Source: Tetraselmis striata (lineage: Eukaryota; Chlorophyta; Chlorodendrophyceae; Chlorodendrales; Chlorodendraceae). From it: 64,000 bases of DNA. The translations under genes and the position numbers were made by a program. Shown here piece after piece: positions 1-20,645 of this stretch (its first letter is position 1; each line of letters opens with the position of its first letter). The notes beneath the pieces are model-generated. The model did not search any database, was not told where the DNA came from, and was given only the letters and a program-made list of their open reading frames with translations. The stretch covers positions 108,554 to 172,553 of the forward strand of contig VCJN01003009.1 in NCBI GenBank assembly GCA_006384855.1. The letters run 5' to 3'.

Positions 1-250
1 GGCGCGGGCTCATCAGCTGTACCGCGCCTTGGAGGTGTGCATGGAGAAGGATCCAAATAAAGCTGCGGGAAGCCTTCGTCGACCTGTTCAAGCTATACAC
101 GGCAATGGCGCTCGCGGCTACGGCACTGTTGTCCCGCTACATGCACTTGAATCATCCCCATGACACGCCGACCAATGTGCGCAGACTTATGGAGGCTGCC
201 AAAAAATGGGAAGTCGACATAGCGGGTGGCATCGTCCGATTACCCGCACC
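1..250 (+). pseudogene. Decayed copy of an uncharacterised repeated protein
   Basis: This fragment matches the minus-strand coding region at about 1380-1615 base for base over long stretches. Both contain the residue strings TPTNVRRLMEAAKKWE and MALAATA. The plus-strand copy has small indels that break its frame near positions 50-65, where 'KDPQGNPKLR' in the other copy becomes an out-of-frame stretch, so it is not an intact gene. It is cut by the window start. Similarity to the other copy stops just after the AGGIV string near 236. The two copies point towards each other, as an inverted pair about 1.1 kb apart. I do not recognise the protein family; being multicopy, it may belong to a transposable element. 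Confidence 0.5.
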
Positions 251-847
251 CAGCAAGTGCAGCTGCAGCTTTCAGGGCAGGCTTCCTGCCGTACCTTAAC
301 ATCTCATGGGGCATGTACGAGGTCCCCGGGCCAGCGGCCTCCGTAGTGACTCCCATCATGCAATGGGCAGATAGAGACCGGCAGCCATGATCTTGTTCTA
401 TACTGGTCGACTCACGAAATTTTCCAGTGAAAGCAGCTCATGAGATGCTCCACTCCCCATTCGGAGAGTAGACTGCGAACATATGAGGCATAGTTGGGCA
501 ACCAACCACAGTGCTTAAAGGTGCAGATGATGCATAGTTGCCCATAGCCAGTAAAGTAGCGAGTCGCAATACGCAGAATTGCTGTAATTTTGGCATTGTG
601 TAACATTCTCAAAAGCCTTACCCATATGACTGTACCAATTGTGCCACCTCCCTTTGCAGTCCCACGCACTCAACAGACTGCCGGCAGGGGTTGTTTAAAA
701 CCGCCGTCGATTCAGATGGCCAAGGCGGGGGCTAGGTTTTGGGCGGTGGGCGCTTGGTGCGCAGGGTAGCGGCGCCGGACCGCTGCGAGAAATTGCTGGG
801 CAGCATAACTTCGATCGATTACATTTACCAGCTACACGGAAATTCAG

Positions 848-1901
848 CTAATAGTGCAGGATCATTATGTTATATGTGCACCACACATACTGCCCCACAT
901 CATGTGAGGACATGCCAAACCGGAATAAGTGTTGGTCTGTCACTATGTCCGGATCAGCATCATAGAAGCAGCTCAATTTCTCCTCGATGTGCTTCAGCGC
1001 GACAAGGAAGGCGTCATGCCCCCTGCGAATGTTTGGCCGAAGGGGCGCCTTGCTCGTCTGCCACACATCAGTGCGAAGGGGACCCTATCACCATGCGCTC
1101 AGCTGCGTACAGTCGGCACACAACGAGGGTGAGGTCCAGCACCGAAGGGTTGGTGTGGGTCACCTCCAGGAAGTACTGCACTTCCCCAACATACACATGG
1201 TTGTCATGCTGCTCCACTTCGGCACGCTTGTCTCGCAGTATGGCAAGCTTGCCGTACTCGTCAGTGGGCACCCACTGCTCGTCCTATGTCTTGAACACCA
1301 CAAGCCTCCGTGTCTCGGGCTTCTCATGTACAACCTGCAGCATGTGTGTGTACACCATAATGATGGTTGGGTACGGGTAATCGGGGACGATGCCACCCGC
1401 TAGGTCGGCTTCCCATTTTTTGGCAGCCTCCATCAGTCTACGCACATTGGTCGGCGTGTTATGGTTCATATAGCGGGACAGCATGGCCGTAGCCGCGAGC
1501 GCCATTGCCGTGAGCAGCTTGGACTTGTCGACGAAGGCTGCTCGCAGCTTTGGGTTCCCTTGTGGGTCCTTCTCGATGCACACCTCCATGGCGCGGTAAA
1601 GCTGAGCCCGCGCCGCAGTGAACCATATCCGGCCGACTTCGCTAAACATGTATATATCAGAAACCCGGGTATCGTCCGGCGCGTCTATGAGGGCGAACTT
1701 ACAACCCCGGAGACCCGCTGCCCCAACGGCGAGGATGCCCGTCCATGTATGTTCCTTGTCGAGAGAGGCATACATGTTGGTGTCGGTCCTGCGGGTTGGA
1801 ACCCACCCCGGCTCGAGATGTATGCACCCCCTCGCGATCAAACGCCGGGTGAGGTAATAGCTGAACCCCGTAGGGACGCCATCATACGCTGCGGACACCT
1901 A
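848..1901 (-). pseudogene. Uncharacterised protein with in-frame TAG and a frameshift
   Basis: A minus-strand frame runs from an acceptor-like CTAG at about 1902 to a TAG at 1284-1286. It then continues in the same frame with convincing protein (EYGKLAILRDK, YVGEVQYFLEVTHTNPSVLD) to a TGA at 1068-1070. A further stretch (GHDAFLVALKHIEEKLSCF) follows in another frame to about 848. No splice pair removes the TAG, so the copy is probably dead, unless TAG is read through. The part around YVGEVQYFLEV faintly resembles C-terminal parts of plant En/Spm-type transposon proteins, but I would not name it. A diverged second copy lies at 1-250 on the other strand. Confidence 0.4.
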
Positions 1902-2951: not shown

Positions 2952-2955
2952 ACAG

Positions 2956-2985
2956 AACAGTAATTTAACCTATTTTGCGCCGTGG
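2956..2985 (+). repeat. Left terminal inverted repeat of the 12.57-kb element
   Basis: Thirty bases pair with 15496-15525 in reverse complement with mismatches only at positions 10, 11, 24 and 28. The flanking ACAG at 2952-2955 is the presumed left target duplication. A further TTTTGCACC copy follows at about 2992-3000. Confidence 0.7.
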
Positions 2986-3248
2986 AATTCATTTTGCACC
3001 GTAGGGTTTGTTTATACCCTATTTCCCGGGTTTACTATCAGTACTTAAGACTCACTGGTGATGTAGCTTGGGTTTGTAGACCTTGGGTGCAGTGCAGCAT
3101 TCAACAGCATGAAGGCCAGCCGCGACGCATATCCAATGTTGGTTTTGGAGCATTTTGTCCAAAATGGGACAAGATGAGGCAATGAAATCAATATTTATTA
3201 TGATTATTACATCCAGCGGCTAGCTAGCCACAAGACGTTGCTGATAGT

Positions 3249-6200
3249 TTATTCGTTGAGCATCCCCAACTCAAGCAAGTCCTTCTTCGTGGCTGCGTTA
3301 AACTTGACGACTCCGCCGGGTTTGCGTTGCGCTGGGGTGGTTGACATGACGTGGACGCAGTTGTTTCGTGGCTGGCTGATTTGCCACCCAGTTTGCGCAT
3401 ATGTCTTCACGACTTGGACGCTTTTACCGTACCACTTCTTTCTGACCATGGTGCCGTCCTCGTTGAACACCTCTCGACTTCCCGACGCGTCGTGGATGGC
3501 CTTCGCGTACGATAGGGGGACGGCTTCAACAAGCTTCCAAGGAAGCGTCAGGCACTTCTCCCAGCTTGTGTCAACTGGCTTCTTCCCTCCTTTTGTCTGC
3601 GCGTACAACCATAGGGGCATGAGGGGTTTGCCCTTTGCATCGGCATGGAAGGGCTCGTATACGGCCACGGTCAACGTGTCTTCGGTAGTCTCGCGCGACT
3701 TCACAAGCCCGATGACGAATCTCGACTCCCAATCACCAAGAGTTTCAGGACACTTGTCTTCCTCATGCACCTAACGATGACCAAGACCGCGAGCTATGTT
3801 AGTCCCGAGCGAGACGCCACGCCATTTTTGTCCCAGCTGGGACAAAATAACAAGCAAGGTAGAAGAACCAAATTGTTTTGTCCCGTAAAGGACAAAAATG
3901 ACAAACAATGGGACTCACATCGGAGACGTCGATGACAACGAGGTTCGAGCCCTTTGCATCGCTGGGCGATGTGTTGTCATGAAGCCTCTCCTTGGCGCCG
4001 GCGTGAACTCCCCGGAAGGCGCTGTCATCTTGAAGCACTTGAGCACGAACCTCGGCTTCAACGCGAGCGGCTTCGGCATTGTTGAGGTCTGCGTTGGTAG
4101 CCATCGTGTGACGTGCCTCAGCAGGCGCGGTCTGCCCGTGCTCGCGCAAGAAATCGTCAACTTCCTCTTTCCGTTGCGGCCAGAACCCGGAGAAAGCTGC
4201 CGAAGGAGCAGTTTGCATCTCATCCAAGTCGTCGAGCAGATTCTTCCAGCTCTCGCGCTCGACTGGGGAGAAGTGCCACTGGACCGCCAGGTCCGTGATG
4301 TACGACCTGACCTTCTTGAAATCATCCAAGTACCTCCGGACCTTCACCGCGTCGGGCTTCTTTTTGTCGCAGAGAGCGTACAAAAGGGGCCGGCCCGCAC
4401 GAATCTCGGGCGTCCCAGTTGGCGCGCTCTTCAAGATCTGCACGGGCTCAGAAAGCGGTGTGTTGGACCACAAGGCGGTGCGCAACGAGCCGCCAGACGC
4501 GGCGGCGTCGTCACGGGTGAACTCGAATTTGTGCGGCTTACTGATGTCCTGAATGTGGTCTTGGAAATGGGGCCTTAACCACTCAGAGAAGTCGAGGGAG
4601 AATGAGAGCTCAGCAATCTCCGGAGTGGGCGAGAATGCCTTCGCCACCAAGTCAAGAAAGGCCTCGATTGTGTAGGCGGAGCTGCGAGATAGCGCAAGAC
4701 TGATGCGGCTGAAGATCTGGTCAACCCGTTCGTGAGTGTGCCCGACAGGCAAGAAAGCCAAATGAATGACGTCGCAGATGCCGATAGACACAAGCCAATT
4801 GCAGAGGGCCGCCACGTTCCTATTCTTGTTCTCCCTGACGGTGTTGTCCATCTGGATTCTGATGTACGGAATCTTTCTACCACGGTGTTGAATTTCCTGC
4901 ATCGCAGACCAGATTTCATCAGTCCATGGCTACCGGACAACCACGGCGAACCTATCGGGAGGCTAACGAGCTCACCTTCATGATCGTGATCCATATCAGA
5001 GTGCACGTCGTGGACGAATCGTGGGGGATGGTGTTGGTGTAGTAGTAGATGTCGTCCGGGCGGTATCCGTCGTACTTCACACAGGTGAGGTGGTACTTGA
5101 GGAGCATGTCGGGCTTCACAGTCTTGGGGATGCGAACCCAGTGAGGCAGCAGGGTCTTCGCGGAGTCCATGCTATCAATTTCGAAGAAGAAGAAGTTTCC
5201 ATGGCCAAGGCGCGACTGGAAGACGGCGTTGTTCAGATCCCTTCGTTCCTGGCGCACTCTCTCGAGGTGTACCTTCTGCTCAGCTCTGACCTGACGCCGC
5301 CTCACCAGCTGCTGATGTTGACGGTGCACTAGACGTTCCTCTGGCGTCATGTCCTTTGTGCAAATCTCGCGAGCTTGGTCTCTGAGTGCTTTGCCCGCCG
5401 CGCATATGGGACAGTGGCTGAATCGCTTCACCTTCGGCGTGGTGACATCCGGGAAGTCTTCCTTCCAAGTCCGGCGGAAAGTGTCGAACGATGCGAGCTT
5501 CACTTCGCTCTCGGTAGCCAAATCTACAAAGGGGCAGGGGCATGATAGGTCGGTATACCAATAAGGTCTCATAATGCGAGACAGAAAAGTTCGGTCTAAA
5601 GTGGGTCGAAATAATTATATCGGTAGTGGGTGAATAATTCTGTAATCAGCTTGGCGAAACAATCTGTCATCAGTGTGACGAAACGGTATGTCAGTAGTGG
5701 GACAAAACCGTCTCTCAGCAGTGGGACAAGACGTTCTCTCTGCAGTGGGACGATATCGGCTAATTATGTGGGACAAATACTTTTGTGGTCGGTGGGACGA
5801 AACGGTATGCCATGAGCGGTGCGAAACGTTCTGTCATCAGTGGGACGAAATCGGTCCGGCGTCGGTGGGACTAAACGTTCTGGCGATAGCGGGACGAAAC
5901 GGTTTGTCATCAGCGGGACAAAACGGTCTGTCATCAGCGGGACAAAACGGTTTGTCATCAGTGGGACGAAACGGTTCGTCATCAGCGGGACAAAACGGTC
6001 TGTCATCAGCGGGACAAAACGGTTTGTCATCAGTGGGACGAAACGGTTTGTCATCAGTGGGACGAAACGGTTTGTCATCAGTGGGACGAAACGGTCTGTC
6101 ATCAGTGGGACGAAACGGTTTGTCATCAGTGGGACGAAACGGTTTGTCATCAGTGGGACGAAACGGTTTGTCATCAGTGGGACAAAACGGTATGTCATCA

Positions 6201-7143
6201 GCGGGACAAAACGGTTTGTCATCAGCGGGACGAAACGGTTTGTCATCAGCGGGACGAAACGGTCTGTCGTCAGCGGGACGAAACGGTATGTCATCAGTGG
6301 GACAAAATGGGCCTCACCACGGAGAATGGCGTTGTCGTCCTCGGCCCACGACTTGTAGTAGTAGTAGACGCAAATCTTGGTCATCCAGGGAGGTAGGTGC
6401 TTCTTGAAGGTCTCGCTGTTTCCGTCATGAAAAGGCATGATCTCGACGTGACCGAGGTCATCCGAGAAGAAGTGCTCGAGAAACATGCGCACATGCTCCC
6501 TCGGTCCGGTCTGTCTGCTCTCGTATTGCTTGCGCTGCCTGATGTACGTGGGTTCGTTATCCACCACCGACCGCTGGATCACGAGACGTCTGTGTTTCGA
6601 GACCTGATGCAAGACCTCCCACGCACGCCCACACGTGTAGATGGGGCCGCGATGATCGAAAGATCGCAAGTAGCCACCGTGATCGAACATGTAATCGAAC
6701 TTGTCGGATGCCGACTCGTAGCCACCCCTGAGAACCTGAGCGAGCCGGTCAAAGGAGCGGTTCTGATTGCCAGAGTATACGGTCAACGCACGGTCCAACA
6801 CGGCATCAACGAGGGCCTCTCCGCACTGTGTGTATAGCTTGTGCACGCACTTGCGCGAACAGCATGGCGACTGCTCGCTAGCCTCCTTGGCGAGCATGAG
6901 GCGGATACAATCGCGAGAGGTGCGCTTGCTGATCAGAGACGAGACCTTGCCATTACCGCTTTCGGCGACCTCATCGCAGCCCTTGCCCCACGTGTACTTC
7001 CTTTTCTCAGGCTCCTTACGATCACTCGCACGCGCGTCGCAATCACACGAGTACCCACTGCGGCACGAACACAGCGGTACTGTAACTGTAGTGTCCGACG
7101 CGCCGGATCCTGGAGAAGAGGCCATGCTTTCGACCGCCGCCAT
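3249..7143 (-). CDS. DUF7869-like putative DDE transposase, four exons
   Basis: Exons 7143-6318, 5595-4976, 4929-3919 and 3770-3249 join in phase to 992 codons ending in TAA. All introns start GTGAG; acceptors are TTTAG, GGTAG and GTTAG. Residues 1-275 include a Cys cluster (SPCCSRKC). Residues 335-345 hold a CPIC zinc-binding pair. An acidic motif EIDSMD lies near 416, MDNTVRENKN near 510, and FLPVGHTHERVD near 552. Asp416, Asp510 and the GHTHExxD segment look like an RNase-H-fold triad. The MDN..ENKN and VGHTHE strings are the hallmark I remember for DUF7869 proteins of protist and metazoan transposons. The third exon ends in a coiled, charged stretch. Intron 1 (5596-6317) holds a 24-bp repeat array; intron 2 is only 46 bp. 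The frame is unbroken, so the gene may be active. The start was chosen at MAAVES; the frame is also open upstream. Confidence 0.65.
5641..6309 (+). repeat. 24-bp minisatellite array 1, in intron 1 of the transposase-like gene
   Basis: About 17 regular units (from ~5881) follow about ten degenerate units. The plus-strand unit begins TCATCAGTGGGACGAAACGG and ends TTTG, with GTGGG/GCGGG and CGAAA/CAAAA variants. Since 24 is divisible by three, every frame stays open and produces false 8-residue-repeat proteins on both strands. The array lies wholly between the GTGAGG donor at 6317 and the TTTAG acceptor at 5596, so it is spliced out. Confidence 0.9.
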
Positions 7144-7683
7144 GCAGCGCGGGGCGAGTGGGTGGGGGGGGGGGGGTGAAGGACTGTGATGTGTGGTGAG
7201 GAAGAGTGACGGCCGATGACCGTTCTCGGACGGGCCGTTGACCGGGGTGCATAATATCCAGGTGCGGGTCAAAATAATTGATGACTCAAATACCGTGTTA
7301 TTTCGTGCTTCTTTCGTATGTCGGAAATAGTTCTATACTAGTAAGTACACCCGAATCCAATCCAAGGAATATATCATCCCATGAAGGAATATTATTGCCA
7401 CGCCACTGTACTCTCGTACCGTTATGACTCTCGAGTAGGGAATATTTTATCTTCCAGTAATAGTAATATATAGTCGCAGTAGTTAGCCCTGTATATTCGT
7501 CGCGGTGCAAAATACATGAACCTGATGACGACGACGAGGTACACTATAGTGTGCGCACGCGCGCCGTTGGTCCAGCAGGGGTCAGAGCGGCGGCAGACGG
7601 AAACCACGTCATTTTCACCTCTCCCTCACCGCTTCCCACCAAGAAACCCGCTCATCTACCGCGTCAACCTACCTACCGCCAGA
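7144..7683. promoter_or_regulatory. Shared divergent promoter region of the element
   Basis: This 540-bp gap separates the start codons of the minus-strand transposase-like gene and the plus-strand methyltransferase-like gene. It is AT-richer than the coding DNA around 7290-7530 and should contain both transcription starts. A 10-base G run lies at 7167-7176. No clear TATA box was seen, so the promoter role is inferred from gene arrangement only. Confidence 0.45.
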
Positions 7684-10600
7684 ATGGCGCCGAAGAAGAA
7701 CGAGCCTGCCAAGGACAAGGAAGACAAGGACGACGCCACCCCAGGTGAGTTGCGCGCGCGTACAGTAGCTGCCTGCCTGCTCGACGCGTGATACGGCCAG
7801 ATCTAGCGAGTTCGGTTAGGGTTCACTGTAGAAGCGGTGTAATCTAGGACCACTCGAGGTGTAGGCAGACGAGTGGCAGCGTACAGTAGCCGCCTGCCTG
7901 CTCGACGCGTGATGCGGCCAGATCTAGCGAGTTCGGTTAGGGTTCCCTGTAGAAGCGGTGTAATCTAAGACCGCTCGAGGTGTAGGCAGACGAGTGGGAA
8001 TAGAAACCCAAACGAGACGAGCGGCATCAGGGTCCTGCAGGGTAGTATTACGTCCCGTCGAGGCAGCTGTTGCAAGCAGTAAGGATGCTAATTGGTGGTG
8101 GGAGGGGGTGGGGGTGAAGAGCGGCCAGGGGGAACCTCTGCCTGTACTCCGCCGTAAGGAGTGGTTTAATTTTAGTGTGAAGCGCAGTACTTAAAGACAT
8201 TACATTATTAAACCGCAGTACATAATGTATTGAAAATAGTTTTGTCATCAGCGGGACAAACGGTTTGTCATCAGTGGGACAAAACGGTTTGTCATCAGTG
8301 GGACGAAACGGTTTGTCATCAGTGGGACGAAACGGTTTGTCATCAGTGGGACGAAACGGTTTGTCATCAGTGGGACGAAACGGTTTGTCATCAGCGGCAC
8401 GAAACGGTTTGTCATCGGTGGGACGAAACGGTTTGTCATCAGTGGGACGATACGGTTTGTCATCAGCGGGACGAAACGGTTTGTCATCAGTGGGACGAAA
8501 CGGTTTGTCATCAGCGGGACGAAACGGTTTGTCATCAGTGGGACGAAACGGTTTGTCATCAGCGGGACGAAAGGGTTTGTCATCAGCGGGACGAAACGTT
8601 CTGTCATCAGCGGGACGAAACGGTTTGTCATCAGTGGGACGAAACGGTCTGTCATCAGTGGGACGAAACGGTCTGTCATCAGTGGGACGAAACGGTCTGT
8701 CATCAGTGGGACGAAACGGTCTGTCATCAGTGGGACGAAACGGTCTGTCATCAGTGGGACGAAACGGTCTGTCATCAGTGGGACGAAACGTTCTGTCATC
8801 AGCGGGACGAAACGGTCTGACAGGATATGATGTTTATAGGCCGAAGGTCCAAGCGGACATCAAAACCTACCGAGAAAGCAAAAGAATTCGATGCGCTCGG
8901 AGCGCTAGTAGGGAGAAAACACAAGGCGTCATCTTCTGTGCCAGAGCAGCCGGCGGCGAAGAAGAGCCGTGCAGCCTCAGCTTCTGCAGCTGGAGCCGGC
9001 GCTGAGGCATCAGGTAACCCCTGGAAACCGAGCCTTTTACGAGGTAGAGTGCCGGCTTACGGCACGCACTCGCAAGGAGAAAGATCGGCCGCCTTGCTTT
9101 TGAGGGCCCGAATCAAGAGCGGCCAGGTCCTCTCAGATGCTCAAATGCAGACAGCGCGAAGGCTAATGGATTACGAAAAGCTCATGCAAGCTTACTATGA
9201 ATCAGGTCCTTGCCTCTCCAATCAAATGATTTTTGTGAGTGCACAGTGTCATATTGACATTGTTTGAAATCATGTGCGTTGACAGGTTCGAAAGGACGCG
9301 CACATGAGACAGTAGCGACTAAAGCTTCAAAGGAATCCAAGGGGAAAGAAAAGGTTTCAGAGACGATTGTGACTCCAGGTAATTGTGACTGAAAGTATCA
9401 ATCCCTGCCTTTGTGAGTGCACTGTGTCATATTGACATTGTTTGAAATCATGTGTGTTGACAGGTTCGAAAGGACGCGCACATGAGACAGTAGCGACTAA
9501 AGCTTCAAAGGAATCCAAGGGGAAAGAAAAGGTTTCAGAGACGATTGTGACTCCAGGTAATTGTGACTGAAAGTATCAATCCCTGCCTTCTCACTCCCTT
9601 CGATTACTTTCTCGTCAATGAGTTATCTGACGTTCCAACATGTCGTAAATTGGCGCAGGCAACCGCGTCGGAAGCAGCTGGTAAATCGGGATCCCCAGGT
9701 AAGAAAAATTACGCTTGGCTTTGATGGTGTATGGCGATACCGTTCAGTAGTTAATCGTGACGCCCACTGCAGGTGTGTTGAGTACTCTCTACTCATTCTT
9801 TACAGGTTCCCCGAATCAAGGCTCTTCTTTGTCTAAAGGCCCGCCTCAAGTACCGGAAACAGAGCCTGAGCCTGAAATAGAGCACACTGAGCCGGAGCCG
9901 GAGCCCGAGCCCGAGCCTGAAACAGAGCCCAATGAGCCCGAGCCAGAGCCTCGACATGAGCCTGAAACTGAGCCAACTCAGATGGAGCCCGAGCCGGAGC
10001 CCGAGCCGGAGCCCGAGCCCACTCGGCTTGACCCGGAGCCAGAGGCCGAGCTCGAGACTCCAGCGCCGACTACCGGGCAAGCGTCCGGTTCTGGAGCCTC
10101 TGGTTCTCGAGCCCCTATTGCCGAGGCTCCGAGAAGGGTTCCTGAATTCCTCAGTATGTGCACGGATGAAGAGGTCTTCGGCACAGAGGAAGAACAGAGG
10201 CAACGGGCGGCAGAGAAGCGTAAGCAAGCTCTCGACATCACCGGCACTCCCGGACCCGAGAGGAAGACAAAGCTGATGACGGTCGCCTCTTACGACGACT
10301 TCTTTGACGAGAGGGACGGGTCCCAAGAAGATGACTCCTACAGCGACTTTACCTCAAGGAGCTGGACTATCCACTGGTTCAAGAACGCAAGTGCTGAGGT
10401 CGAGATCTATTTGTACATCGAATTGCACAAGGCGAGCCTGCTGACTGGCAAGGACTTTTTCGATGATCCGAACGGGCCACTTCTCGCGTGTATCGGAAAG
10501 ATCAAGGACGTCGAGCTGGACTCGGCCGGAAACTACGAGGTGAGTAAAGCTTATATGATGTCTGAATTCGTGTCAATGTCGTGTTTCAATAAGTATTAAT

Positions 10601-13600
10601 ATTCTTATGCTTGTTACCGCAGATATCTCTTGAACCTTATCGCTTGACAGTGCACAAGGAGTTCAGGATCGATGTCAGCTTTGAGAGGTTGCTACTCCAC
10701 GCGATCCAACCGCCACTCTCCTTCCAACCGCGGTTCCAGTCTTACTACGCATGGACTTTGGTCGAGCGCAATGTGCTGGCGCAGGCGCTGACAGGTTTCG
10801 CGTCTGGTCAGATTGACATCGATGACTTGGCCAACATTGACAAGGATTTTAAGAACGCGCTTCCATACGTCAACACGTTGGCCGTCCCGCCGGCCTTGAA
10901 TGGCTTCAACAACACCGGTGCCGTCGACTGGATCTCTTACGGCCACCTCAGAGTCGAGATTGCTGATCCAGAGGTGAAGACATCTCACGGTGGCGACATC
11001 AACACGTTATACGCCGACAGAGTCAACCTCGTCGTCGACAAGGATACGGGGCTGCCTCACATTTTCAGCTTCATATCCGATAAGTTCGTCGCTCCGCCGC
11101 CGGAATTTGAATTCCGTTCCCCAAAGCTGCAAGACTGCAATATGGTGGCGCAAAGCTACAAGGTAAAAGCCTATCGCGACATGTTGTACCTATCCGGATC
11201 AGATATGTGTAGTTACATATAAATCAATGCACAATGCAACTTACTGACATCCATTTCTTGCATTTGTTATTCAGAGGAATCCTTCCCTGTCCGCCGAGAA
11301 TTTCTCGGTGTCCTTTCCAGTAGTCCCTAAACAAGATTTTTCTCCGATGAGTACGAGCCCCTCGCTCAGACCATGGCCAACTTCAAGGAGCTAGTCGCAG
11401 CACACGAAGGCGGGGAGAACCCGAGATTGGCGGATTCAAGTTCCTACAAGCCAGAGATCGACGTCATCATCCAGTTTCTTAGCGCCTACGGCGCGCGTCA
11501 AGCCAACATCGACGGCAGCCACAGACGGGAGGCGAAGCGCATGGTGAAAGAAAACTACCCGGAAATCTACAAAGCCAACAAAGGCATCCACCTCACGTCG
11601 GCTAAGATGTACATCGGCCTCTCGCCGGAAGTCTGCCGCTACATGTCTATGAAGCTCAACGAGGCGGGTCACACCGTCGTGGGAGACACGTCGATGCACA
11701 AACTCCTGGTGAGTGACCCATTCTCCCAGATTACTATTTAGCAGAGCGTGGCAGCAAATAGGCGTAAAGTGTGACAAAAGTCGTTCTGTCGTTAGCGGGT
11801 TAAAAATATGACAGTGGGACGAAACGGTTTGTCATCAGCGGGACGAAACGGTTTGTCATCAGCGGGACAAAACGGTCTGTCATCAGCGGGACAAAACGGT
11901 TTGTCATCAGCGGGACAAAACGGTCTGTCATCAGCGGGACAAAACGGTCTGTCATCAGCGGGACAAAACGGATTGTCATCAGCGGGACGAAACGGTTTGT
12001 CATCAGTGGGACGAAACTTTCTGTCATCAATGGGACGAAACGGTCTGTCATCAGTGGGACGAAACGGTCTGTCATTAGCGGGACGAAACGGTTTGTCATC
12101 AGTGGGACGAAGCATTCTGTCATCAGTGGGACGAAACGGTTTGTCATCATTGGGACGAAACGGTCTGTCATCAGTGGGACGAAACGGTATGTCATCAGCG
12201 GGACAAAACGGTTTGTCATCAGTGGGACGAAACGTTCTGTCATCAGTGGGACGAAACGGTTTGTCATCAGTGGGACGAAACGGTTTGTCATCAGTGGGAC
12301 GAAACGTTCTGTCATCAGCGGGACGAAACGGTTTGTCATCGAGGTACAATCGTTCGGAATTTTGAAATCGGTGCAATTGTTTCTGCAGAACCTTCGCAGA
12401 TGTTTCGAGAGCTGGTATGCAGAACAAGATGCAAATCGCCCCGGCTTTAGGGCACTTCCGCAAATCAGGGTAGTGAAGGAGTTCAAGAAGTCTGAAGTTC
12501 TTCAAGTTGAACTTGAGAAGATCGGCATCAAAGATGAGAAGAGCAGCGAGTTCTCAAATTTGATTGACCTCTGCTCGCGCCCACAACGGTGAGCTGCGTA
12601 CACGATGAAAATTTATCGTGTTGTTAATGCTGCTAGATTCTGACAAATGATTTGCGCAGTGTTTTTGAGCCCCTTGAGCAGATTTCTGAAGCCTACCGGC
12701 ATGTGCAGCTCGGGGTTCGAGGATGGGACGAAGCCAGAACCAAACTCGGAGACCTATTTGTGTACTACGAGCAAGAACTCGATAGAGTCGAGCGTCTCAA
12801 TTACGGCAGGCAACTCACCCAGAAGGAAGTGAGGAAGGTTTACGAAGCAATTCGGAAGCCTATCAATGCAATCCTCGATAACAAGAAGTACGGCTTCGGG
12901 AAAGACAGAGCTCACTTCCGAGTCGCCCTCATGGAGGTAAGTTGTGACCGACCCCGGTGTCTTAATCATATGGAATACTATCATTGATTCCTTTCTCCGT
13001 ACTGAAGTTTGTTTTTCGACCCAGGATGTCGGCTTTGGACCCCATGCGCCCTGGCTAGACGAGCCGTCTCTTGCCAAGCAGAGCGACAGCGCGGATCTCC
13101 CTGTGGGCCAGATGTACCTGGTGGTTGGACTGCTCATCCAAGGCGAGCACAGTGTGACCCCGAGCCTCTACGAGCTGGTGGATGACATTAAGCACGCCGG
13201 CGACAATGGCCCCATGGCTGTTACGCACACCAACGCGGAGTGGCTCGCGATGATTGAGACCTGGAGGTTTCGCGATCTCTTGCGTCGAGCAAGCATCAAG
13301 CTCATGAATGCTATTGGCACGGCAAAGGGACACGGACAGGAGATCCAACTGCTGACGCCGGACGAACCGGCCAGGAACTGGGGGAAATATCTCTCGGACC
13401 ACATCATCGAAATGGATGTGGATGACAAAGTGTCGGATGAGCAAGCGGCCGCTCGCCTTGACGCCATCACCAAGTTCCGAGCCAATGTTGATGACCTCGG
13501 CCCAACAGGCTTCCCCAGAAAATTCCAGGATTTGTTCAAAGGTGCTCATCGCTCCGGTCCGTTGATGGTCTTGCTGACCCCTCCTGCCAGATGGGGGGAC

Positions 13601-15182
13601 ATGAAATCCGCCGATTGTCTCACACCACCACCGGTTCGAGAGCATATCGCGGCCACCAACACCACCATCAGGAGTGAGGCGTATCGCATCAAGAATCAGA
13701 TGCCGGACTTAGTCATCTCCTTCTTCACAGAGTTTGCTCTTCTGGCATGTGCGCCGGAGCTTATCGCGGCTTCCGCTCCGAATGTTTCTAATGAGCTGTG
13801 GATATCGATGAAGGTAACTAAGATCTTGTGCAACCACAAATGCTCTTCTGAATTTTCGTTGTGAGCTATTAACCCGAATCTGTTTTCTAATACGCACAGG
13901 CCGAGGAACTTCCGGTGATGCCCAAGGGAGAAGGGGTCGACACGGATGACAAGGTGTGGTTGAACACGGAGCTTTGCAAGACTTGCATTGTGGAGGGGAA
14001 CTTCAAGGCTCCCGCGACAAAACAATTCGTCGCGGACGCCATGTCGGCAGTTCGTGCCAAAAAGGCAACAGTCTTCATTGCCGACGCGCTTTTCGGAGCT
14101 GGTTCGCACACATGGGACTCGAAGGATGCTGCGTGGGGTACGGACGACTTCAACGACGTGTTTGCTTTCGCCAGGCAAGACAACCCCCACAACCCCGGTG
14201 CGTACTAGATGACTGTGCTTTCATTTATCTCATTCCCGATTTACCCCCGCGCAGGCAGTTGAATATCCAGACTGGATCTTCTGACGTCCACACTGCTCTC
14301 GATGGGTGCCATTTCTTCATTCACCTCTCGGACCAGCAACTTGGATCCGCAATCACAGCCGTTCAAAAACAAGCTGAGGACCTCATCTATCACGTCCTGA
14401 CTTGGGCTAAGGATTGCGGGATGAAGATGGGCAGCTCTCTGCGTCACGACGCTGAGTACTACCTCTACGTTAGGAAGCCTCCGCCAAGCATCATAGCTGA
14501 CAACATCCGTTTCGATGATCCCCGAAGGTGAGATTTGATCCGTGGAAAATAGCCGGCTTGTATTTATTTACTCGCTAAGCCGGTTGTGCCTTTCCAGGTT
14601 CTCTACATCCATCATGTTGGGTCACTTCAAAGACAGTTCGAAATTGAAGGACGAGAACAGACAGACGGTGAACAAGTACCAAAAGCCTATCGCTCTCTTC
14701 GCTAAGCACCTTAAGATGGCGGCAACAGACGGGACAACAATCGTCGACGTCACAGCCGGAACCGGGACAACCGCGGTGCGTGAGGGGTGCAACCCGGGTG
14801 AGTGTCTTAATGGGGTCAGCATAAAAAAATTAACGCCTTGTGCGGTTTGCCACGCCTTTTCCAGGTCGCTGCGGCCTTTTCCGTGTGGTGGGACCATATG
14901 GATCATAGCTACTCGTTCACACACAGGAACTTGAAGACGATCCTCATTGACAACCAGAAGACGCAAATCGCTGGGATGAAGTCCAGGATGACCTCATGGT
15001 TCAAAGAGAAACCATGGGACGAGACTCAAAGACTGCGTCCAAGTGACTTCGAGAAGTGGCCGGGTCTACCCCATCCAATGACCGTGTCAGAGGAGTTCGC
15101 AGAGCGTCTTGCGGCAGCGAAGAAAAGGCAAGAGGCGGCAGAGCGCCGAGGGGATTATGTGATCGAAGATGATGATATGTAG
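7684..15182 (+). CDS. Large protein with C-terminal beta-class DNA-methyltransferase-like domain
   Basis: Fifteen exons join in phase: 7684-7744, 8840-9013, 9286-9378, 9464-9556, 9678-9698 (least sure), 9806-10539, 10623-11162, 11277-11708, 12389-12588, 12660-12936, 13025-13813, 13900-14201, 14255-14527, 14598-14775, 14865-15182. They total about 1,494 residues. The N-terminus is Lys/Glu-rich, followed by a Glu-Pro repeat region in the sixth exon and a long unrecognised middle. The last ~300 residues read as a permuted N6/N4 methyltransferase. A motif-IV-like [15 protein letters not shown] comes first, then [10 protein letters not shown] and LTWAKD. Motif [19 protein letters not shown], follows, then [17 protein letters not shown]. 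The usual D/S-PPY is DALF here, so activity is doubtful. Exon 8 has an in-frame TAA at 11328-11330. Introns hold two 24-bp arrays. Methyltransferase similarity is from motif memory, not a search. Confidence 0.55.
7760..8001 (+). repeat. 121-bp tandem duplication in intron 1
   Basis: Two adjacent copies with a period of 121 bp share CCTGCCTGCTCGACGCGTGA and the CTAGCGAGTTCGGTTAGGGTT stretch, with only a few substitutions. The duplication lies in the first intron of the methyltransferase-like gene, between the GTGAGT donor at 7745 and the second 24-bp array. Confidence 0.85.
8239..8818 (+). repeat. 24-bp minisatellite array 2, in intron 1 of the methyltransferase-like gene
   Basis: About 24 near-perfect units of the same 24-bp sequence and the same DNA orientation as array 1. 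GTGGG units are commonest, and a homogenised GGTCTG sub-block covers the last third. It ends 20 bp before the TTTATAG acceptor at 8839. Open frames across it are artefacts of the period. Confidence 0.92.
9233..9588 (+). repeat. 178-bp tandem duplication containing a whole exon
   Basis: Positions 9233-9410 and 9411-9588 are almost identical, with about two base differences. Each carries a 93-bp exon (9286-9378 and 9464-9556) with its own CAG acceptor and GTAATT donor. The exon is phase 1 at both ends, so including one or both copies keeps the reading frame. The product gains a second Lys/Ser-rich 31-residue block. Confidence 0.88.
11809..12343 (+). repeat. 24-bp minisatellite array 3, in a later intron of the methyltransferase-like gene
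   Basis: About 22 units of the same 24-bp family, same DNA orientation, richer in the GCGGGACAAAAC variant at its start. It lies inside the intron 11709-12388, flanked by a GTGAGT donor and a TTTCTGCAG acceptor. Confidence 0.92.
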
Positions 15183-15495
15183 TACAATTCCGCAAAATTA
15201 GCCGCTCATATGTTTTGTCCCGGCTTTGACAGAGTTCAGCCCCGGACGGCACAAACTACTTGTAGCCATCACGGCCCCCGCTCTTTTTTGTCCCAGTTTG
15301 GACAGAGTTTCAGCCTCCGATGGCGCAAACTTCTTGTAACCATCCCGTTTCCTTCAATCTTTTGATTTGTCCCTGCTTGGACGGAATTGGTTTCCCCGAC
15401 TTGGCACAAAATGAACCAACCGGCATTCATATTAGCTTGCAATCCCACTGCTGCCCCCAAACCCTGATTTAGACCTAACCACAATGCACCGCGTG
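15183..15495. repeat. Right subterminal repeats of the 12.57-kb element
   Basis: Three diverged units of about 65-78 bp begin near 15212, 15285 and 15363. Each starts with TTTTGTCCC or ATTTGTCCC and contains an inverted GGCRCAAA further on. More copies lie close to the terminal repeat (ATTTTGTGCC and ATTTTGCCCC, read on the minus strand). The left end (2971-3180) has the same motif: TTTTGCGCC, TTTTGCACC, TTTTGTCCA and an inverted GGGACAAG. Such clusters commonly serve as transposase-binding sites in DNA transposons; that role is inferred here. Confidence 0.65.
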
Positions 15496-15525
15496 CCTCG
15501 GGGCAAAATAGGTTGCATTACTGTT
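15496..15525 (-). repeat. Right terminal inverted repeat of the 12.57-kb element
   Basis: This is the reverse complement of the left terminal repeat with four mismatches. ACAG at 15526-15529 directly follows and matches the four bases before the left repeat. Confidence 0.7.
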
Positions 15526-15529
15526 ACAG

Positions 15530-16804: not shown

Positions 16805-17714
16805 TATGCGCCAGATGGACTTTATTACGACGAGTATGTCACGGAATGACTACAGACGAGTGTCATTATGGTGGTAATAATACGGGGTAAATTCAGGGTA
16901 TAATACATGCTGATTATGAGGAGGTCCGGGAGCCTAGTGTATGAATCGTTGAAGTGTCTCTTCTTCCTCGACATACTATTGGGGTCACCGGCGTTCCGCG
17001 TGGGTAGGTGGCGGCAACCAGATGTATCCACCGTCGTCATACGCAACATAGGAATCACCCGGCGATGGTGCACCTGTACCGGAAGGATAACCGTGAAGTG
17101 GAGAAAAGCCACCTCAATGGAGTCGGAAGGGGTATCGTCGATAAACGCAGGTGTCGGCGGTGTTCTTTCGGACGCTCATGGCGACAACAAAGGCATCATG
17201 AAGCGGTAGGGAGACGGGGGCGAAACAACGCAGAACTGTCAACATTACCTCCGGGCTCGTTGCCGCTGGGCCGAACTCCGTTGCCTTCCTCCACGACGAC
17301 TTGAACTGCTGCACGTTGTCGAAAATGAGGCTCACGCATACTTACAGAACGCAACCAATCGGTTTCGTTATGGGCATGGTGGAGGTGGCTGTTGTGACGA
17401 TAGTGGGTGTTGTGATGCCCAATAGCGGCCCGCGGCCAACGTTTTGTGGGGGGTGTGTCGAGCGAATGGAGCCTCTAAAACCGACGTGGCGCCGCCAAGG
17501 ATAGCGCGCACGGAGACATGGGGCCAGTTGCGGCCGTACGCGTCGCTACGACTTCTCCAGTGCAGTATTAAGTACTGTTTGGGATTCAGAATCTTGTTTT
17601 GCCGATATCCGGTTTTACACTCCCCCCCCCCCCCCCCCCCCCCCCCTCCTTTTCTGAGGGAGAAAAAATAGCTAAATCAAACTGCCCTTTATTATTATAT
17701 TATAATCATTAATT
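16805..17714. other. No gene seen; long poly-C run
   Basis: The frames here are short and unsupported. A C run of about 25 bases lies at 17622-17646. Confidence 0.5.
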
Positions 17715-18048
17715 CCCCTACCTCTTGGGTTGAGCGGAGGAAAAGGAGAGCCGCGTCCGAAATCGCCTGGAATATGAGAGAATCGATACCGGTTACAATA
17801 CGGTTTTATCACGGATTTTTAGGCGTCCGTCCTCCGTCCTCCGTCCGTCCTCGTGTGCTGCGTCTTCGTGTATGAACCGTCATACACTCGGTGTTCAGTC
17901 GTTTGATTTCACGGTACAGGTCCGAGGACGGTAAGGTTCTGAATGGATGCGCGTGTATTCTAGCCCAGGCACGCCATATATTCGTCTGAAACGCCAAAAT
18001 AACGCGGCACCGCAGCGCGTTTTTACTGCTGAATCAGCAAGCGAGACT
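17715..18048 (+). repeat. Interspersed repeat family I, copy 1 (334 bp)
   Basis: This matches 22633-22966 over its full 334 bp, same orientation, with scattered substitutions. It begins CCCCTACCTCTTGGGTTGAG and ends GCGAGACT. It contains short CCGTCCTCCGTCCTC tandem steps. No coding potential. Confidence 0.9.
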
Positions 18049-18559
18049 ATTCAGCGACTATTCCTTACCCGGGTTCTCCGCGCGCCGGCGAACCCGGAGA
18101 ACCTCGTAGCCGGTCGTGCCGCCCGCAGGCCTCCGCGCGTAGGCTAGGCCGGCGAACTCCAGGCTACGTCCTAGCTTTCGCGTTCCGGGGCCCCCGAGAA
18201 CCGCGACGTACCGTCCGAAGAACCCGGCGTCAGGGGGGCCTGCGCGCAGTACCGAGCGGCCGTGTGCGGCGCCCCGTCAGGCGGGAGGCGACGGCGCGAC
18301 ATGCCAAACCCGTACCATACCTTCGCGCCGCGTCGCGAGAGCCCGGCGTAGCGCTCGTACGGGGTAACGAAGCCGGAAAATTGTGAGACCGGACTGCTGC
18401 TGCCCCCCACGTAGTCGTCGCATGTAGCGACAAATACCAGTACCAGTATAGGAAAGCGGCACTCCACCCGCCGGTATGCGTCGCGGGTCTATGCCCGGAT
18501 GGGCCGCCCGGATCACCGTGGCGGTGCTTGCTTGTGTCGCGGTGAACACCGGGTCCGCC

Positions 18560-20645
18560 GCAGCAGGCAGCGCCGCTCTATAACGGGCCGATCCGCTCGA
18601 CGGCGGCGAGGACGAGCTGGGGCCCCTGCACTCGGCCGAAGATGAGGAGGTAAGTAACCTAGCGACAACTGTAGTCTATGACCCCTCCTCGTCAATTGTT
18701 AGGATGACTGAATTGCAGCCTCCCCTTCCCCCCCCCCCCCCCCTCCCACTTTCCAAACCCCCAAAAACCTGCTCCCGCACTGCGCTGCGGGAGCCAAGCC
18801 CACGCCCAGCTCTGCGGGGCTGGCTTGCTATTACGATCGTATTTTTCTGTGACCCGCTAGTTCCCCGCGGGCCTTTCAGCATTTCCAAAACGGCTAGCAC
18901 TGCCACATAAAAATATTATAGCTACATTTTGAAGCCTACCCACCGCAGCAAAAGTGCTATACCGGCGACTGGTGATACATATGTGCCGGGCAGGTTGAAA
19001 GGTTTTGCGCTACTCGTAAGCTTTGTATGAGGTGGCCTATATAATCTTGAAATTCCGTCATATTCAGCACCGCCACAACCCATGCTAACCCCCCCCCCCC
19101 CCCCCCCCCCCCCCCAACCACCACCACATCCCTCCATATCGTCATGTCAGGACCCAGAAATTGCTGCGATACTAGCGCCATCTCGCCGTAAGCTCGCAAA
19201 GAGGGACGCTGGAGAGATGGAGGAGATCCGTGAGAAGCAAAGCAAAATGCCCGCCTCCACAAACTCGCAAGGCAGGAAGTTCACCAAGTCCGATACAAAG
19301 TAGGGCTTTTGCTTTCCCTGCGCATGCATCATCAACAAATCCAGCATGTATGCATTATTAATACCCGCGCGGCCCAATACGGCTGCGCTTTGATTAATTA
19401 GCGTTCGTGATTGTTGAATATTTGACATTTTGTACATGTGCATGCAGAAATCTGCTCCCCAAGATGTGCAACTTAATGAGATACTGCCGGGAGGTCGGCT
19501 ACGTCATGGCAGGCAACACGTACGGCCCGCGGAAGCACATGCCGCCGGTAAAGACAGGCGGGAGTGGGTATATGCAACGGCCGACTGGATGGAGTCAATC
19601 TTTCTAAAGCCTGCCAACGCTCAGGCACAACCAAGAAATTGACCGCATCCAAGGCAAGTGTTGCCGCCGCCTGCACAAATAGGCGTATGGCAGTTCAGAG
19701 GTACTTGCGCATCAAGCTACATGCACGCGGGTGTGGAGCATTTAATCGCTTTACTAACTTATCTTCCACTGCTCCATCGTGGTCCTCCCAAGAGCATAAT
19801 TGGGCCGCGGCATTCAAGCTGTGAAACATCTTTTACTACTCTCGTGGGCAAGCGGCATGTGATGCCGACCAGATTCCGCCCGTAACAAAGAAAGACCCTT
19901 CTGGTACATACGGTTCTAAGTCTATATATATCCCAATGTGTATGCAGGTGAGAATCATAGCTAAATATGCTGTGCTGGAATATGCGTAGATTTGCTGTTG
20001 TTCTGTGTACATATGCGTATACATGTATAGCATGTTATGGAAAGAACTAAAAATGCTGCACAGGACATGTCATATACTGAGGAGGACATTGTCAGCAGCC
20101 CCAGCTGCAACACCTGCCCCACCGGCAAATGTCGCAGCAGCTGAAGCAACATCTACACCGGCAGCACCTTCGAGACCTACGGCGGCAACATCTATAGCAG
20201 CCACCAGCGGCAGCGGAACCATCGGGGGAGTACCCCGCGAGCCGAAGGCCAGGTGGTCACCCTCATTGATTCCGGGGAAAGTGTGAAATAAATGTAATGA
20301 TCTATTCCTGATATTGAAATGCAGTCACGTCTCTGATAAATATTAACTGGGCAATGGTTTCTGTAGCCAAGTGATGGCCGCATGTCCACCGCCACTGTCA
20401 AGGTTGCGGATTTGTGGAAGGAGTGGGTCTCTGGGTGGGACACATCTGATCAAGCTGGCAACGTTGTGTGGAAAGACCCTGTCGCAGCAGTGCTGCAAGC
20501 CGAGACCACCGACGAGTACCCGATGTTCTACGCTTGGAAAAAGAAGTGCGGTAAAAGCTTCTGTCATTACCGCCATGTACTCATTAGAGAAATAGTGAAA
20601 CAGCCAGATTATCGTAGGACTGGGGATGGGAAGATTATTGCCTAG
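18560..20645 (+). CDS. Multi-exon gene, possible GCR1_C-like C-terminal domain
   Basis: Exons that fit in phase are an acidic exon ending about 18649 (DELGPLHSAEDEE, donor GTAAGT), 19151-19299 (PEIAAILAPSRRKLAKRD), 19448-19547 (LLPKMCNLMRYCREVGYVMA), an Ala/Pro-rich exon ending at 20280, and a last exon 20367-20645 ending in TAG. One or more exons between 19548 and about 20090 are unresolved, as is the 5' end. The last exon has VADLWKEWVSGWD followed by FYAWKKKCGKSFCHYRHVLI. That pattern recalls the GCR1_C domain, found in fungal regulators and in some Crypton-type elements. The resemblance is weak and from memory. The intron between the first two listed exons contains poly-C runs at 18730 and 19089. 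Confidence 0.35.

Follow-up and report, generated by a model that had tools for sequence, protein, structure and literature searches.

The stretch of the Tetraselmis striata genome analysed here (contig VCJN01003009.1, positions 108,554 to 172,553; 64,000 nucleotides, hereafter the window) contains, at 2956-15525, a segment of 12,570 bp that belongs to a young family of cut-and-paste DNA transposons present in many copies. The segment is bounded by 30-bp terminal inverted repeats (TIRs; 2956-2985 on the plus strand and 15496-15525 on the minus strand), the outermost letters of which read AACAGT...ACTGTT. An initial annotation, made from the sequence alone, had reported that the two repeats agree at 26 of 30 positions, and our re-measurement gave the same value. 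ACAG stands directly outside both of them, as that annotation had also noted, with one copy at 2952-2955 adjoining the left TIR and the other at 15526-15529 adjoining the right TIR. When the window was searched with a 23-mer from the ends, allowing up to 3 mismatches, two places only were found, namely both element ends, with 0 expected. The interior is filled by two divergent spliced genes, an arrangement that our exon models bear out: gene T on the minus strand, encoding a DUF7869 protein, and gene M on the plus strand, encoding a long protein with a methyltransferase-like C-terminal part.

To see whether other copies share the same 30-bp ends, a check already proposed in the initial annotation, we searched the whole assembly (224 Mb, 2,903 contigs) and found about 245 such places. 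With up to 2 mismatches, the left 30-mer occurs at 248 genome places and the right 30-mer at 242, while the reversed patterns, used as controls, gave 0 in both cases. Ten more copies were retrieved whole, eight of them 12.2-16.0 kb long, one 10.6 kb and one 7.4 kb. Including the window copy, which is counted among the 11 copies here and below, the TIRs agree at 26/30 positions in 11 of 11 copies compared whole, and alignment of the window with the nine longer copies yields blocks that are 93.8-98.7% identical, with gaps between them. The left ends listed are not uniform: at least two classes, TTTTGCGCCG and TTTTGCACCG, can be told apart among them, a hint of subfamilies. The shortest of the retrieved copies (C1567, 355321-363347) is a derivative of 7.4 kb. 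It has kept the ends of the family, but most of T and nearly all of M are gone, and it is about 82% identical to the window between the two gene starts.

We then examined the sequences adjoining the ends. End pairs were picked by eye, mainly from the first 100 listed places per end out of the 248 and 242. Of the 34 pairs obtained in this way, 31 were examined and 3 left out, and one or more additional pairs, with ends on one contig about 28 kb from each other, were likewise omitted. An exact 4-bp duplication was present at 24 of the 31 end pairs, none of them longer, and 7 pairs were without a duplication. When, as a control, ends were taken from different copies, the 4-mers agreed in 12 of 930 cross-pairs. 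The duplicated 4-mers have no fixed sequence and are of mixed composition, with no AT-rich target. Two of the 31 pairs (C2525 and C2865) have ends about 24 kb apart and have kept their 4-bp duplications, perhaps reflecting a nested insertion inside; the interiors of these two pairs were not read. The comparison of filled with empty sites, likewise suggested at the outset, covered the fetched loci, among which the joined flanks of 3 of the 11 copies found an uninterrupted match. The empty site of the window copy corresponds to locus L018, which is 98.4% identical over 490 bp and has a single ACAG at the junction, and the flanks of C1721 and C1742 match distant relatives (89% and 81%, respectively) that run through the insertion point. 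Given the duplications at the copies and the uninterrupted empty site, insertion and target-site duplication are thus shown and not inferred. That both genes are long, spliced and represented by annotated models could in principle point to a pair of host genes or to a segmental duplication, but fixed ends at about 245 places with differing flanks, 4-bp duplications and the empty site rule this reading out, and we assign it practically no probability.

Gene T consists of four exons and encodes 968 amino acids in the window model. Exon 1 (6318-7143) starts with an ATG at 7143; exon 2 (4976-5523) contains the start of the DUF7869 domain with the first acidic residue (EIDSMD); exon 3 (3919-4929) contains the bulk of the domain (QMDN...NKN, FLPVGHTHE..D); and exon 4 (3249-3770) ends with the stop at 3249. 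Among the splice junctions of this model, confidence is lowest for the intron 1 acceptor. The initial annotation had described an intact transposase frame of 992 codons across three introns; the frame is indeed open in the window over four exons, whereas its length is 968 codons. In Pfam, T matches DUF7869 (PF25273) with 138.9 bits against a curated cut-off of 26, and this is its sole match above cut-off; no integrase family was detected in T in a scan with E values up to 1. A structure model of the centre of the protein shows, with low confidence, an RNase-H/integrase-like core. Foldseek searches of the PDB with this model returned weak and mixed matches, with the nuclease NurA first and Mos1 second, and a second structure aligner placed integrase cores at the top with Argonautes close behind. 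The low-confidence fold and the conserved acidic residues, from which its chemistry is inferred, make a DDE/D transposase of the RNase-H fold the most likely identity of T. No relatives of T were found in viral contigs. The initial annotation had considered DUF7869 to be known from transposons, which we could not confirm, as the name is absent from the openly licensed literature searched. In P0072, encoded on a non-Tetraselmis contig, DUF7869 is combined with an OTU-like cysteine protease domain, which hints at varied DUF7869 partners.

Several known groups of elements were considered for classification. Polintons are recognized by capsid or protein-primed polymerase genes, and we rejected a Polinton or Polinton-like virus after Pfam scans of the exon open reading frames (ORFs) and of spliced T and M found neither; other short ORFs were not scanned. 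Ginger elements, in the part of PMC10741241 that describes them, are characterized by 5'-TG...CA-3' termini and by TIRs 40-270 bp long, and were rejected in view of the AACAGT...ACTGTT ends and 30-bp TIRs found here; in addition, the Gypsy-type integrase domain is absent from T in the Pfam scan. KDZ/Zisupton was set aside because the relevant section of PMC12730594 gives an 8-bp duplication for Zisupton, compared with 4 bp here. The Sola superfamily was a further candidate, the members of which are described in the available part of PMC10741241 as having 4-bp duplications, sizes of mostly 2-9 kb with some above 15 kb, TIR lengths of 11-1124 bp and a transposase of the DDD type. The element shares the 4-bp duplication with Sola and overlaps with it in size, and it could be a Sola member that carries an extra gene. 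On the other hand, Sola2 duplications are AT-rich according to the passage on them in PMC3627910, while those found here are mixed, and DUF7869 alone exceeds the Pfam cut-off in T. The comparison was made with Sola as described, no Sola sequences being used, and we regard membership in this superfamily as possible but doubtful.

Gene M comprises 15 exons between 7684 and 15182 and encodes about 1,480 amino acids in intact copies (1,478 in C154). Exon 1 (7684-7744) starts with an ATG at 7684 and exon 2 (8840-9013) has a possible longer version, open in the same frame to about 9205. Exons 3 and 4 (9286-9378 and 9464-9556) are the product of a 178-bp tandem duplication (window 9232-9587, 99%), which doubles one M exon in phase, and the first intron contains a 119-bp duplication (7758-7876 and 7879-7997, 96%). 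These are followed by exon 5 (9678-9698), exon 6 (9806-10539) with a Glu-Pro-rich repeat that varies in length in frame, exon 7 (10623-11162) and exon 8 (11275-11708), the frame of which is broken by a small indel in the window copy and open in some other copies. Exons 9-11 (12389-12588, 12660-12936 and 13025-13813) lead to exons 12-13 (13900-14201 and 14255-14527), which contain the candidate motif IV stretch and methyltransferase-like part, and to exons 14-15 (14598-14775 and 14865-15182), which contain motifs X, I and II and the stop at 15182. Public gene models exist for both T and M, with protein identity up to 97-100% to entries labelled Tetstr1, a label that points to T. striata as the host. 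The border of exon 13 is uncertain because three of the public models (P0076, P0077 and P0082) lack its start and begin about 100 bp later, and the last splice junction is supported by the relative P0113, which has a stop-free insert at the position of the last intron. M is fully open in 4 of the 11 copies (C54, C154, C1721 and C1742) and T in 6 (the window copy, C154, C238, C809, C1547 and C1721), so that both are open in two, C154 and C1721. In C914, M exon 1 and part of T have been lost.

Spliced M of C154 has a sole Pfam match (E up to 1), to N6_N4_Mtase (PF01555) at residues 1241-1376, with a score of 28.3 bits compared with a cut-off of 26.7. A 299-residue piece of M matches the phrog_67 DNA methyltransferase with an E value of 3.7e-9 and the CcrM model with 1.7e-4, the latter far under the cut-off. 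Motif I of such enzymes has the form D...GxG and motif X the form NK..KP, and the C-terminus of M shows motif X (NKYQKP), then motif I, then motif II (ILIDNQKTQ), a permuted order in which these motifs come after the candidate catalytic half. We therefore describe the C-terminal domain of M as methyltransferase-like, resembling the permuted CcrM-like N6/N4 type, and do not file it as an active enzyme.

This caution reflects the state of motif IV, the consensus of which in N6/N4 methyltransferases is (D/N/S)PP(Y/F/W). The corresponding stretch is present in 36 of the 57 proteins looked at, and 35 of the 36 have DALF at the place of the motif; all but one of the 57 are from T. striata, so the copies are not independent. 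The canonical motif occurs nowhere in the 1,478-amino acid C154 protein. Moreover, the Pfam match begins at profile position 47, past what we take to be the motif IV region of the profile. By sequence, the altered motif speaks against ordinary catalysis by M, and classical N6/N4 methylation is possible but not favoured. The idea of the initial annotation that the element might mark or protect its own DNA goes beyond these data: motifs I and X are kept, but motif IV is altered. On this reading, M would be an active DNA methyltransferase that marks the element ends and the intronic repeat arrays described below, allowing escape from host silencing or controlling the timing of transposition. The presence of motifs X and I, pairwise ratios of nonsynonymous to synonymous substitution (dN/dS) below 1 and precedents of transposon-borne methyltransferases in the available parts of PMC3627910 and PMC5890265 would fit such a role; with DALF in place of the catalytic motif and the Pfam match confined to the region beyond it, we nevertheless consider it unlikely.

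Relatives of M were sought with protein searches that scored only the candidates sharing most words with the query. Among the candidates scored, a long query found 18 proteins, all from Tetraselmis, and the 299-residue domain found 39, of which 38 are from Tetraselmis and the other, P0113, is 40% identical and encoded on a short ENA contig. No M relatives were found in viral contigs, and a phage search with the M domain returned three records, all of them the gene mox of Mx8, matching over 51 residues with an E value of 8e-3. Used as a single-sequence query, the M domain had no match among PDB sequences, while its alignment retrieved three methylases at E values of 1.4-2, two of which aligned at motif I only. 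A structure model based on P0002 and eight relatives reached a mean pLDDT of 30. In the genome, the M domain has 630 candidate places, of which 150 were scored; some of these matches contain at least one stop, and decayed relatives therefore exist too.

Considering the divergent arrangement of T and M in the window, we asked whether the two genes travel together. A 30-mer from T exon 3 was found at 253 genome places and one from the M motif I exon at 273 (up to 3 mismatches; 0 with the control in each case), counts that are near the number of element ends. For at least 41 of 81 listed T places, a divergent M place lies 7.6-14 kb away (median 10.0 kb), whereas other T-M arrangements at 5-20 kb were seen twice among these 81; the count used 81 of 100 listed T places and 99 of 100 listed M places with exact matches only, and 41/81 is thus a lower bound. 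Pairwise dN/dS, estimated by the Nei-Gojobori method from pairs that are not independent of each other, was 0.12-0.46 in 15 pairs for T and 0.35-0.51 in 6 pairs for M. On this basis, both genes look constrained, M less tightly than T.

The looser constraint on M raises the question of whether it is a captured passenger, useless for transposition, with frames that are open merely through the youth of the copies. M is intact in fewer of the 11 copies than T (4 compared with 6), its dN/dS is mostly above that of T, with values of 0.95 and 1.37 for parts of the gene in individual pairs that have few changes, and copies without most of M occur. Against this, the whole-gene ratio is below 1 in 6 of 6 M pairs, the numbers of M and T places are similar, and a domain relative only 40% identical exists in P0113. 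Net length changes in M exon 6 are multiples of 3 in all 7 copies that have them, which also argues for constraint, though the Glu-Pro repeat may favour such changes. Taken together, we judge it rather improbable that M is only a passenger. Elsewhere in the genome, a 7.3-kb copy (C70, 47911-55314) with the duplication GTCG has all T exons aligned and most of M deleted, including the methyltransferase part. This copy is no proof that the element can do without M, since the loss could have occurred before or after insertion.

Motif clusters near both ends, noted in the initial annotation, were recovered as TTTTGTCCC/GGGACAAAA-type motifs near the left and right ends. On the left, motif pairs of the form TTTTGTCC(C/A)...GGGACAA(A/G)A and similar lie at 3153-3174, 3826-3847 and 3876-3897; on the right, motifs lie at 15213-15234, 15286-15307 and 15365-15386. 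Each of the 11 copies has 3-4 motifs of this type in the left 1 kb and 1-2 on the right, and none was found in 600 bp of flank in any of them. These subterminal motifs are candidate transposase-binding sites. Further inside, three arrays of a 24-bp repeat, which the initial annotation had not noted, are present on the plus strand, in T intron 1 (5675-6298), M intron 1 (8252-8803) and M intron 8 (11816-12343). Ten longer copies, including that of the window, have three arrays each, with 13-32 units per array and 52-69 in total, and C1567 has two in opposite orientation. The repeat core, GGGACRAAA, is related to the end motifs, and the arrays may provide extra binding sites.

The initial view of a large cut-and-paste transposon that pairs a DUF7869 transposase with a permuted methyltransferase-like protein is thus upheld by the copies, their ends and duplications, the empty site, the linkage of T and M and dN/dS. 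We consider it likely that the family is of an autonomous type, with T as the transposase and M as a constrained, DNA-acting partner. In this model, T would bind the 30-bp ends, probably aided by the TTTTGTCCC/GGGACAAAA motifs, excise the element and insert it at 4-bp staggered cuts, giving rise to the 4-bp duplication; that the element is excised and not copied is an assumption drawn from its TIRs and duplications. M, which has basic stretches near the protein start, would be a methyltransferase-derived and probably SAM-binding protein that acts on DNA or chromatin together with T and helps transposition or chromatin access. A more elaborate possibility is that T and M work as one machine of two parts. 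M, SAM-binding and catalytically rebuilt, would then bind repeats of the GGGACRAAA type, both those at the ends and the 52-69 internal units of the longer copies, and would either read an unusual base mark there or deposit it, with excision gated by this mark. We hold this to be speculative and improbable; if true, it would make the intronic arrays a built-in control platform of the element. Two observations reduce our confidence in the model as a whole. Among four other proteins with the M domain, P0076 is above the N6_N4_Mtase cut-off (27.5) but P0008 (25.4), P0113 (25.5) and P0077 (23.6) fall below it, and this weak Pfam support for M, together with the weak fold support for T, makes the explanation less secure and a passenger role of M slightly more probable.

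Outside the element, an imperfect inverted repeat in three blocks spans window positions 13-1605, with arms in 13-237 and 1385-1605 that are 85-94% identical. Positions 276-870 are 81% similar to the target region of the element copy C1742 and probably represent a different multicopy repeat. In the right flank (17615-19115), three long plus-strand C runs lie near 17622, 18729 and 19089, the last of which is 27 long.

The initial annotation had stated that no described element carries such a gene, which is too strong for the kind of gene, as the available parts of PMC3627910, PMC5890265 and PMC12730594 describe comparable elements. According to PMC3627910, virus-borne Mariner elements are likewise cut-and-paste elements with a transposase and a methyltransferase. 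They differ in having TA duplications, a Mariner transposase, an endonuclease gene and a viral location, and their enzymes are of the Methyltransf_26 or C5 type, with 459 and 344 amino acids, in contrast to the 4-bp duplications, DUF7869 transposase, permuted N6/N4-type protein of about 1,480 amino acids and about 245 copies in an algal genome found here. In fungi, DNA transposons of the KDZ, hAT7, IS3EU, PHISTA, EnSpm and other groups carry TET/JBP enzymes (PMC12730594, in its relevant part), which again places a DNA-modification enzyme as a second gene in cut-and-paste elements; in the fungal elements the enzyme is a dioxygenase, the transposases are others and duplications are of 2, 3, 6, 7 or 8 bp. 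Retrotransposons of Symbiodinium and Klebsormidium carry DNA methyltransferases under purifying selection (PMC5890265, in the part available) and are algal elements like the one described here, but their enzymes are C5-cytosine methyltransferases with conserved key residues, whereas the T. striata element is a DNA transposon. PMC10120064, consulted for Tetraselmis transposons, has viral elements as its subject in the part available. With the adenine methyltransferases CcrM and Mx8 Mox, M shares a similar motif X/I region, C-terminal after the candidate catalytic half; it differs in its altered motif IV and much longer spliced protein. The combination of a DUF7869 transposase with a permuted N6/N4-type domain whose motif IV is altered, present with about 245 sets of ends in a green alga, was not found in the openly licensed literature searched.

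For DUF7869, a family of unknown function, these data provide a concrete and likely role as a transposase acting on 30-bp ends with 4-bp duplications. At the same time, a green-algal cut-and-paste transposon joins the short list of mobile elements with recruited DNA-modification proteins, in this case with a permuted adenine/N4-type domain the catalytic motif of which has changed while the gene still seems constrained. With about 245 sets of ends in the genome, and with T and M both open in some copies, the choice between methylation and binding as the mode of action of such helpers becomes directly testable. Collectively, our data suggest that mobile DNA in T. striata may have recruited a protein of a DNA-marking type as a helper.

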